Source of the DNA: Allobosea sp. 117
GTDB lineage: Bacteria > Pseudomonadota > Alphaproteobacteria > Rhizobiales > Xanthobacteraceae
NCBI RefSeq assembly: GCF_000702305.1
Contig: NZ_JNLC01000010.1
Coordinates: 558,001-622,000, forward strand
Direction: 5' to 3'
Length of the DNA: 64,000 nucleotides
Shown: in pieces, positions 47,166-52,556 of the stretch
How the letters are laid out: each line of letters begins with the position of its first letter
Position numbering within the stretch: position 1 is the stretch's first letter
Position numbers and translations under genes: made by a program
Notes under the pieces: model-generated
Seen by the model: the letters and a program-made list of their open reading frames with translations, nothing else
Database searches by the model: none
Told to the model about the DNA's origin: nothing

Positions 47166-47493
47166 CCGCCCTCCTGCGAGGGGCAGCACGACACATATGG
47201 GGGGAAGGTGGGAGGCTGACATGCGACCCGAGACGGGCTCGTTGGGGCTGCTTCCTTCCGGACCTGACCCGGTTGGCGAGTGGCTCGTCCACCGCCAACC
47301 TCCCGCCGCCTATATCGGGCAGATGCGCCGGCGATGCAAGGGGAAGCCGCCGGGCCGGCGATGCCCTCACGAAACGTGATGCGCCCGGAATGTCGCGCGG
47401 GCGCGGATCGGAGTAAGGTGGCGGCGGATTCCGTTCCCCGACTGTATCGTCCTCGGCGCCCGTCGCCCGAGGCCTTCCGCCTGAGGTTGCGTC
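47166..47493. other. Intergenic region without a supported gene
   Basis: 328 bases between the ABM gene and the small secreted protein. Short open frames exist but have poor codon bias and no recognisable domain. No hairpin terminator or promoter stood out. Confidence 0.5.
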
Positions 47494-47787
47494 ATGCGAA
47501 CCGTGCTTCTCGCCCTTCCCCTCGCCCTCATGGCCTCGGCGGCTTCCGCCCAGCCGATGCCGAACTCGCTCTCCATGAGCTGCGCCGGCGCGCGCGATCT
47601 GGTGAGCCGCAGCGGCGCCATCGTCATCGGCACCGGGCCGCATTTGTTCGACCGCTATGTGACGAACACCAGCTACTGCTCGATCACCCAGGTCACCGAA
47701 CCCGCCTGGGTCGCCACCGCCGACGACCCGCAATGCCTGATCGGCAAGCTGTGCAAGGACCGACGGTACAACAAGCGGAACCGGTGA
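47494..47787 (+). CDS. Small secreted Cys-rich protein
   Basis: 97 residues. A signal peptide of about 19 residues (ending ASAQP) and a mature part with five Cys (SMSCAGARDLV, TNTSYCSITQ, DDPQCLIGKLCKDRRY). Typical of small periplasmic proteins in Rhizobiales; function unknown. The next gene begins 46 bases on, at a sharp composition change. Confidence 0.7.
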   Translation: MRTVLLALPLALMASAASAQPMPNSLSMSCAGARDLVSRSGAIVIGTGPHLFDRYVTNTSYCSITQVTEPAWVATADDPQCLIGKLCKDRRYNKRNR

Positions 47788-47833
47788 GGGGCGATATTCT
47801 AAGAGATATTGTCTAGACAAGGGTAGGGATGCC

Positions 47834-48664
47834 ATGGAGGAAAATATATCTGACGAATCGAAGCTTGTTGCTGCCCTTGCTGATTTAGGGGGGCGTACAA
47901 ATAATGCAAAATTGAGAGAAAAATTAGGCTGGTCGACTGAAGAGTACTTGCCGATCAGAAACTCAGCGAGAACAAAAGGCCTGATAGGTATCGGAATGGG
48001 TAGGGGAGGGGTAGTTTTTCTTATAGACGCCTCTCAACAAGTGCCGGAAGTGCAGCAGAATATCACTTCTGATGGGGATCAATTAGAAGAATCGACAGAA
48101 TTCAAGAAGGAGTCGGTATATTACAATAGGATTTATAAAGTACTAAATGAGGCGTGGGTGGATAGCCAGGGCCTAGATGATTATTATATTGAGATAACTG
48201 CAAGTAAGAGAGTAAGAAATTCTGGAAGGTGGACTGTTCCAGATATCGTTGTGGTGGGAAGGACGATTTGGCAGTATGTTCCTGGATTTGAATATACGAT
48301 TCAAACATTTGAGATAAAAAGGTATGAGGCATTGGATAATCTGGCTGTATTTGAAGCCCTGAATCATAAGAGATCCGCTAATTATAGCTATCTAGTGGTC
48401 GTAAATTCCCCCGTTCCTAATGATGCTGATAGTATGTTGTCAAAAGAATATAAGGACAAGATAAACCCAATTAAGCAACTGTGTGAAGAAAATAATATAG
48501 GATTGATAGTTATTGGGAGAGAAAGAGAGGAAGATTATGATTCTTGGAGGTTTATTTTTGACGAGGCTGTAAAAAATAATCCTGATCCAGAAAATATAGA
48601 CGGATTCATCAAGCAGTATATTAGTAATAATGGCAAGGAGGTGATTTCAAAAATGATAAGATGA
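47834..48664 (+). CDS. AT-rich orphan: winged-helix plus PD-(D/E)XK nuclease-like protein
   Basis: 276 residues, strikingly AT-rich against GC-rich flanks (AAA, ATA, TAT and AAT codons throughout), which points to horizontal transfer. Residues 7-64 look like a winged helix (ESKLVAALADLGGRTNNAKLREKLGW...RGGVVFLI). Residues 95-230 fit a restriction-endonuclease-like fold: a helix (YYNRIYKVLNEAWV), PDIVVVG with Asp137, TFEIKRY with Glu160 and Lys162, a helix, YSYLVVVN, and CEENNIGLIVIG. The PD...ExK spacing suits the active site. I know no named family for it. No transposase, integrase or partner gene is beside it. It may be a solitary defence or repair nuclease; that is inference. Confidence 0.75.
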   Translation: MEENISDESKLVAALADLGGRTNNAKLREKLGWSTEEYLPIRNSARTKGLIGIGMGRGGVVFLIDASQQVPEVQQNITSDGDQLEESTEFKKESVYYNRIYKVLNEAWVDSQGLDDYYIEITASKRVRNSGRWTVPDIVVVGRTIWQYVPGFEYTIQTFEIKRYEALDNLAVFEALNHKRSANYSYLVVVNSPVPNDADSMLSKEYKDKINPIKQLCEENNIGLIVIGREREEDYDSWRFIFDEAVKNNPDPENIDGFIKQYISNNGKEVISKMIR

Positions 48665-48689
48665 AAATTTGAATATTTAAGTATTTGGC

Positions 48690-49679
<990 letters not shown>

Positions 49680-52349: not shown

Positions 52350-52433
52350 GACGTTCGCGCAATGCGCATCTGCGTTCGGTTTAACGGACGCGCCTCTTGA
52401 CGCCAAGCCGGGCGCGGGAGTAATCCCCGGCCG

Positions 52434-52497
52434 TCCCGTGGTCAATTTGAGCCGACCGGCTTGCCGCCACGCTAAACAAGGTTGCTAAAAGGTCGGG
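52434..52497 (+). ncRNA. SAM-II riboswitch upstream of metZ
   Basis: Stem P1 is CGTGG (52437-52441) with CCACG (52467-52471), and the loop region reads TCAATTTGAGCCGACCGGCTTGC. The pseudoknot P2 is CCGACC (52452-52457) with GGTCGG (52491-52496), joined by GCTAAACAAGGTTGCTAAAA. The TTTGA, GCTAAA and GCTAAAA elements match the SAM-II class. It lies 60 bases before the metZ start, so S-adenosylmethionine would switch off translation or expression of metZ. Confidence 0.93.
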
Positions 52498-52556
52498 GCC
52501 GCGCAGCGTTCGCGCGATGGCGTCCCCGGTCCGTCCACAAGGTACCGGAGCCGCCG

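Follow-up and report, generated by a model that had tools for sequence, protein, structure and literature searches.

Here we describe a 276-residue protein, encoded by a single AT-rich gene in a 64-kb stretch of DNA (hereafter the window), in which an N-terminal winged helix is joined to a C-terminal nuclease domain of the PD-(D/E)XK type (Table 1). This predicted fold is well supported, and so is the horizontal acquisition of the gene. We infer the activity, target and defence role of the protein, and consider it fairly probable that it is a stand-alone, restriction-like anti-invader nuclease acquired horizontally at a cargo hotspot.

The gene reads from an ATG at 47834 to a stop codon at 48662–48664, in a frame of 307 codons without a stop; the coordinates, the length and the numbering of Asp137, Glu160 and Lys162 in the first-pass annotation are correct. 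G+C content, calculated per 300 bp, falls from 0.69 to 0.35–0.47 across the gene and returns to 0.69, and 47834–48664 is the sole run of at least 500 bp with less than 55% G+C in the 64 kb. The composition therefore shifts abruptly at both gene ends, as that annotation had claimed, and its description of a lone cargo gene between genes of host composition also holds: no mobility gene was seen beside the nuclease gene. Neither of the adjoining genes (the 97-aa ORF, which has no Pfam match, and the pip-like gene) resembles a methyltransferase. Within its own 4.64-Mb genome, the nuclease gene is the single match to itself. No tRNA genes were found in the window, and the longest direct repeat between 47100 and 49000 is a 16-nt pair (81%) located in the flanking genes. 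Integrase-type insertion was rejected on these two grounds and because the cargo abuts pip and not the 3′ end of the gene for the signal recognition particle (SRP) RNA. Promoter-like sites numbered 4 (2.1 expected) and terminators 0 (1.3 expected). A perfect 12-bp palindrome, TTGTCTAGACAA, lies 13 bp upstream of the start codon and might, speculatively, be an operator. It has one exact copy only in the 4.6-Mb genome, is absent from the 13 relatives examined, and a palindrome of equal length arose in 27 of 5,000 shuffles of the 46-bp spacer. Elsewhere in the window, a SAM-alpha riboswitch (52428–52508) precedes an ORF listed from 52482 that resembles, by eye, a PLP-dependent sulfur-amino-acid enzyme.

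Table 1 Features of the nuclease locus and loci of the ParA-coupled branch
Feature	Position	Strand	Basis or remark
SRP RNA gene, left hotspot anchor	47208..47303	-	Rfam RF00169
Left neighbour, 97-aa ORF with signal-peptide-like start	47494..47787	+	Start by eye; host composition; no Pfam match
Perfect 12-bp palindrome TTGTCTAGACAA, 13 bp upstream of the start codon	47809..47820	.	Possible operator, speculative
Winged-helix and PD-(D/E)XK protein, CDS including stop, 276 aa	47834..48664	+	ORF; no family match above cut-off
Predicted N-terminal winged helix, residues 7-63, homologous by alignment to the N-terminal extension of HsdM and other DNA methyltransferases	47852..48022	+	AlphaFold2, BLASTP
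Low-confidence linker, residues 67-88, pLDDT <50	48032..48097	+	AlphaFold2
Predicted PD-(D/E)XK nuclease domain, residues 93-275 (E93, P136-D137, E160-x-K162, E174)	48110..48658	+	AlphaFold2, alignment, VIA-align
Right neighbour, pip-like hydrolase gene, right hotspot anchor	48690..49640	-	Named by eye; host composition
ParA-linked loci	L014 (5923-8166), L017, L018, L019, L020, L038, L039, L041-L044

AlphaFold2 was run on an alignment (A2) of the window protein with 13 of the 14 relatives found in genome contigs; the remaining locus (L013, from Williamsia, frame broken) was excluded from A2 and A3, as well as from the tree and the count of ParA-linked loci. The resulting model of the whole protein has a pLDDT of 80.8 and a pTM of 0.63, and that of the nuclease domain alone reaches 85.9 and 0.84. 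Both models have a core of the order alpha-beta-beta-beta-alpha-beta, formed by helix 93–111, strands 116–121, 138–145 and 152–163, helix 169–178 and strand 184–192. In the model, D137 lies immediately ahead of strand 138–145, E160 and K162 are located on the next strand (152–163), and E93 opens the first helix. Besides the start methionine, ten residues (E93, W133, P136, D137, F159, E160, K162, E174, G223, F258) do not vary across all 14 aligned rows; the rows are 21–31% identical to the window protein.

Comparison of the core with solved structures by VIA-align placed PaqCI at the top (Z 10.5, 152 aligned residues, r.m.s.d. 3.8, 9% identity); the best-scoring protein after it was 3dnx (function unknown; Z 8.3). 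The lower rows hold many nucleases of the fold, among them BsmI, MspJI, NgoMIV, FokI and Hjc (Z about 5 for the last). With the whole protein, PaqCI again came first (Z 10.7), followed mostly by MarR-type winged helices. Foldseek returned no match below E 0.001: its first row for the whole protein was TrmBL2, and for the core human Mus81–Eme1 ranked first (E 0.004) and PaqCI second (E 0.011), with Hjc also among the matches of this fold. Unrelated rows in the structure lists, such as acetyl-CoA carboxylase and nitrilase, were attributed to chance topology and disregarded. Because Foldseek alone gives no match below E 0.001, we base the assignment of the fold on three lines taken together: topology, residue conservation and the alignment by VIA-align. 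The combination of an N-terminal winged helix with a PD-(D/E)XK core, previously read from sequence pattern, is thus borne out by the AlphaFold2 model, by the conserved residues and by the match to PaqCI.

The N-terminal domain resembles known winged helices both in structure and in sequence. Winged helices of the MarR and Z-alpha types match residues 1–72 at Z 9–10 (VIA-align). In a search of the nearest genomes, residues 9–74 match inside larger ORFs that by eye are HsdM proteins (L004, L005, L006), and in the order a domain of this kind stands at the start of three ORFs of 1,049–1,094 codons. Downstream of the winged helix, the scanned L004 ORF (1456–3195) carries Pfam HsdM_N and N6_Mtase, and the scanned L029 ORF an N6_N4_Mtase match; in neither of these two does a Pfam model cover the winged helix itself. 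By BLASTP, each as a single comparison, the window protein is identical to the L004 HsdM at 27 of 70 positions (E 2e-13) and to the L029 methyltransferase at 18 of 39 (E 9e-7). These alignments indicate that the winged helix of the window protein is homologous to that preceding HsdM and other DNA methyltransferases. PDB sequence matches of the HsdM N terminus to designed PPR proteins (E down to 3e-14) were discarded as likeness to a repeat consensus. In type I enzymes, the N terminus of HsdM participates in methylation sensing; the winged helix of the window protein may likewise read methylation state.

The methyltransferase background of the host sets bounds on such a mark. Its genome lacks N6_Mtase matches and contains two N6_N4_Mtase genes, by eye one CcrM-like and the other the mod gene of a type III mod/res pair. 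As the genome encodes both, a modification-reading nuclease would have to spare the marks of the CcrM-like enzyme and of the type III Mod. The mod/res pair lies beside an AIPR-like gene on another contig (L117, contig C11; the mod gene is a PF01555 match, the rest by eye).

No model of Pfam, NCBIfam, PADLOC or PHROGs passes its cut-off for the window protein; the best lines, DUF7343 in Pfam (E 0.022, residues 5–34, under cut-off) and phrog_18861 (E 0.16), are too weak to be of use. The Mrr-cat family (PF04471), to which the first-pass annotation had pointed, did not appear among Pfam matches up to E 10, a search in which the HMMER filters drop very weak matches. Pfam contains a HARE-HTH model, and it too gave no match to the N-terminal domain up to E 10. 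A sequence search of the PDB with the window protein yielded nothing useful, and PADLOC matched neither this protein nor any of the relatives that were scanned. A winged-helix nuclease family of this kind thus goes unnamed in all four libraries; among HTH–REase fusions, a known kind of protein, it is an uncatalogued branch.

The protein has relatives, though only distant ones. Single-sequence scans found no close relatives in genome contigs or viral contigs, and the alignment-based scan of genome contigs found 14 loci, which belong to Alpha- and Gammaproteobacteria, to a Saprospiraceae bacterium and to Williamsia. Among whole genomes, and with the own genome counted each time, 6 of the 101 nearest matched (three of them through the N-terminal domain only), as did 15 of 397 in the order, at 17 places, of which four (L029, L030, L031 and L034) again match the N-terminal domain only. 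With the nuclease domain as query at E 1e-6, the class yielded matches in 7 of 385 genomes and the phylum in 6 of 398, the own genome being counted in each. Plasmid records gave one Ensifer match and, with relatives as query, one additional match in Paraburkholderia. No relative came to light among 50,697 phage records or in four scans of viral contigs (one single-sequence, two with alignments and one with a solitary relative), and a viral origin was set aside on this basis.

Three kinds of known enzyme come closest to the protein. HTH/HARE-HTH–REase fusions are described in Dnd and BREX neighbourhoods in passages of PMC10853773 and PMC12839542; they too join a DNA-reading domain of the HTH class to PD-(D/E)XK, and one relative of the window protein (L015) is located just after AAA_23/SMC, DndE and HNH_2 genes. 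The window protein, by contrast, has no HARE-HTH Pfam match and no adjoining dnd gene. The 6mA-dependent type IV endonucleases fused to a winged helix (DpnI, FcyTI and Psp4BI), as presented in PMC11037411, likewise combine winged helix and nuclease and mostly stand alone without a linked methyltransferase, but in them the PD-(D/E)XK domain precedes the winged helix, which in the window protein is N-terminal. Because no HARE-HTH model matches it and its two domains stand in the reverse order to those of the PD-(D/E)XK–winged-helix enzymes, we place the window protein outside both groups. PaqCI, a type IIS enzyme, shares the nuclease fold (Z 10.5 over 152 residues) and a PD...ExK active site, its catalytic residues being D54, E73 and K75 according to passages of PMC10201449; at 9% identity, however, it differs in having an N-terminal nuclease domain and a separate target-recognition domain, as described there.

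The gene is one of several kinds of cargo found between the SRP RNA gene and pip. Among 30 same-genus genomes, it lies within 1.5 kb of pip in one only, which excludes universal presence at this site; in the near-relative whole-genome search, other genomes of the genus matched only through the N-terminal domain. The SRP RNA gene was found in the stretch read beside the pip 3′ end (1.5 to about 9 kb) in 24 of the 30 genomes and not in the other 6. In those 24, the interval between the two genes measures about 90 bp to 6.2 kb, with intervals possibly off by some tens of bases in the three stretches in which the pip end was not exactly placed (L068, L070, L071), and a run of at least 500 bp with less than 55% G+C is present in 11 of the 24, the own genome included. 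As a control, the 1.49 kb on either side of pip were compared: such AT-rich runs lie on the 3′ side in 5 of 30 genomes and on the 5′ side in 0 of 30. By eye, the start of the cargo coincides with the pip stop codon, or lies no more than a few bases from it, in L053, L057, L066 and the own genome.

What occupies the interval varies, and at least two of the cargo genes belong to families of a defence type. Cargo in two sister species encodes an AIPR protein (L088; Pfam E 7e-29, PADLOC AbiU E 4e-26), with a cupin-like gene between it and pip, and a RelA_SpoT protein (L097; E 6e-15). The cargo of L082 and L087 consists of sugar-modification-like genes (acyltransferase-like and deacetylase-like by eye) that are not of a defence type, and that of L079, L090 and L096 of proteins without assignment. 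One of the last, an AT-rich 230-aa protein (L090:4334–5026), has no Pfam or PADLOC match; by eye it shows an RNxxxH-like motif, which we take to be reminiscent of HEPN RNases. Given this mixed cargo, we regard the interval as a cargo hotspot in which defence genes make up a share, and not as a pure defence island. No paper with an SRP RNA term that describes the gene as a defence or integration hotspot was found in the open-access literature. The comparison of the pip junction across sister genomes that the first-pass annotation had proposed therefore shows a variable slot, filled in some genomes with other AT-rich cargo, and its suggestion of acquisition by transfer stands: the gene is present in one of 30 same-genus genomes and other AT-rich cargo occupies the same interval.

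The relatives fall into three groups: a ParA-coupled branch, genes without ParA, and longer gammaproteobacterial proteins. A ParA-type ATPase gene starts near or overlaps the nuclease stop codon in 11 of the 23 loci examined (10 by motif scan and L020 by reading, as its motif ends in KTA and was missed by the scan). Duplicate records (L002 and L022 for L018, L003 for L017, and L023–L027, L036 and L037 for L038–L044) were recognised, and L045–L048, L107–L111, L119 and L120–L125 were left out of the tree and of the ParA count as distant. The ParA-type gene of L014 matches Pfam AAA_31 and CbiA. In 8 of the 11 loci (L014, L017, L019, L020, L038, L039, L041, L044), a third gene of 118–181 codons follows ParA; the product of the L014 copy, which was scanned, is named by no library. 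No description of a ParA–nuclease defence operon was recognised in the open-access literature, and the nuclease–ParA operon, with or without the third gene, is possibly a compact candidate defence cassette. No ParA gene accompanies the window gene or those of L007, L008, L009, L010, L011 and L016, nor those of L040 and L106, which are nevertheless placed on the same side of the tree as the ParA-linked rows. Several of the genes without ParA have a third-position G+C content below that of their neighbours, and relatives of this kind come from five named genera and a Saprospiraceae bacterium. In the nuclease-domain tree, the window protein groups, on a long branch and with weak support (79/84), with the solitary and gammaproteobacterial rows.

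The longer gammaproteobacterial proteins are L012, L015 and L021, of which L012 directly follows an AbiEii gene. A type ISP restriction-modification (R-M) gene lies about 0.9 kb from L010. Beside L007, L008, L009, L011, L016, L021 and L106, no defence gene was recognised by eye. An MrcB_N gene lies about 3 kb from the frame-broken Williamsia relative (L013:5947–6730). A more distant set of HTH–nuclease proteins of 299–328 aa (L048, L109–L111) has the nuclease domain in common with the window family (hhalign with that of L048: 94.9%, E 4e-8) but a different and longer N-terminal region; no library model exceeds its cut-off for those scanned. A type I HsdR gene is situated about 1.2 kb away from L048. 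We presume that this set may belong to the HrgA/COG2958 group, and no paper on COG2958 was found in the open-access literature.

Several other explanations were weighed against an anti-invader nuclease. As VIA-align places a type IIS enzyme closest among the solved folds, and as the genome carries two N6_N4_Mtase genes, the protein could be a sequence-specific, orphan type II-like restriction endonuclease, protected by the unlinked CcrM or type III Mod. Against this, no methyltransferase is linked to the gene, the protein has no target-recognition domain besides the winged helix, and the nuclease gene is sporadic, whereas CcrM is a housekeeping enzyme in the bacterial class of the host; we regard such an orphan as unlikely. 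The window gene might instead be what is left of a multi-gene system: its ancestor would have acted together with a ParA ATPase and a third, small protein, as in the sister branch, and these partners would since have been lost. The coupling to ParA in 11 of 23 loci and the third gene in eight of them speak for such a history, and L040 and L106, without ParA yet on its side of the tree, suggest that partners may be lost. The window protein, however, groups with solitary and gammaproteobacterial rows and not with the ParA rows (weakly, as given above), its ParA-free relatives are spread over five named genera and a Saprospiraceae bacterium, and it retains all catalytic residues; ParA matches elsewhere in its own genome are distant (32–45% over part of the query). 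A remnant likewise seems unlikely.

A transferred nuclease of DNA repair or recombination would fit the first place of human Mus81–Eme1, ahead of PaqCI, in the Foldseek ranking of the core and the presence of archaeal Hjc resolvases in the VIA list. There, however, the score of PaqCI clearly exceeds that of Hjc, and the best 50 rows do not include Mus81; together with a gene beside pip in only one of 30 sister genomes and with neighbourhoods of relatives in which, by eye, no repair gene was recognised, this makes a repair function improbable. The first-pass annotation had allowed for either defence or DNA repair: the defence half has gained from dnd, type I, type ISP and AbiEii neighbours of relatives and from the AIPR and RelA/SpoT cargo, and the repair half is not supported, as no linked repair gene was recognised. 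A winged-helix transcription regulator with a nuclease-like domain that is no longer catalytic would account for the MarR-type matches to residues 1–71 (Z 9–10) and for the genome-unique palindrome upstream of the start codon. The invariance of E93, D137, E160 and K162 in 14 rows, which a dead domain would hardly retain, and the lack of the palindrome in the 13 relatives examined make a regulator highly improbable.

We therefore return to a horizontally acquired, restriction-like nuclease. In the mechanism that we propose, the winged helix would inspect incoming DNA for a modification mark or a motif missing from the host. A flexible linker would join it to the PD-(D/E)XK domain, with its predicted complete catalytic set of D137, E160 and K162 and the invariant E93, and the nuclease, probably as a dimer, would cut that DNA with Mg2+. 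The result would be a one-gene, type IV-like restriction system without a cognate methyltransferase. Several observations weigh against this reading: relatives beside which no defence gene was recognised, hotspot cargo that is not of a defence type or lacks assignment, the failure to find relatives in the phage records and viral contigs scanned, the lack of any PADLOC match, and Foldseek lists without a match below E 0.001. More tentatively, and on balance doubtfully, the family could constitute a new one-gene class of modification-reading restriction enzyme, in which the winged helix by which HsdM or Mod would judge how a site is methylated has been taken over from R-M methyltransferases and licenses cutting, with the sister branch forming a new three-gene defence system in which ParA and the small third protein control the nuclease.

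For the genus, these data mark the interval between the SRP RNA gene and pip as a cargo hotspot. The family, for its part, links the reading head of a nuclease to the methyltransferases of R-M systems, and if the winged helix reads adenine methylation, the sensing of methylation state by HsdM-type enzymes would become testable.
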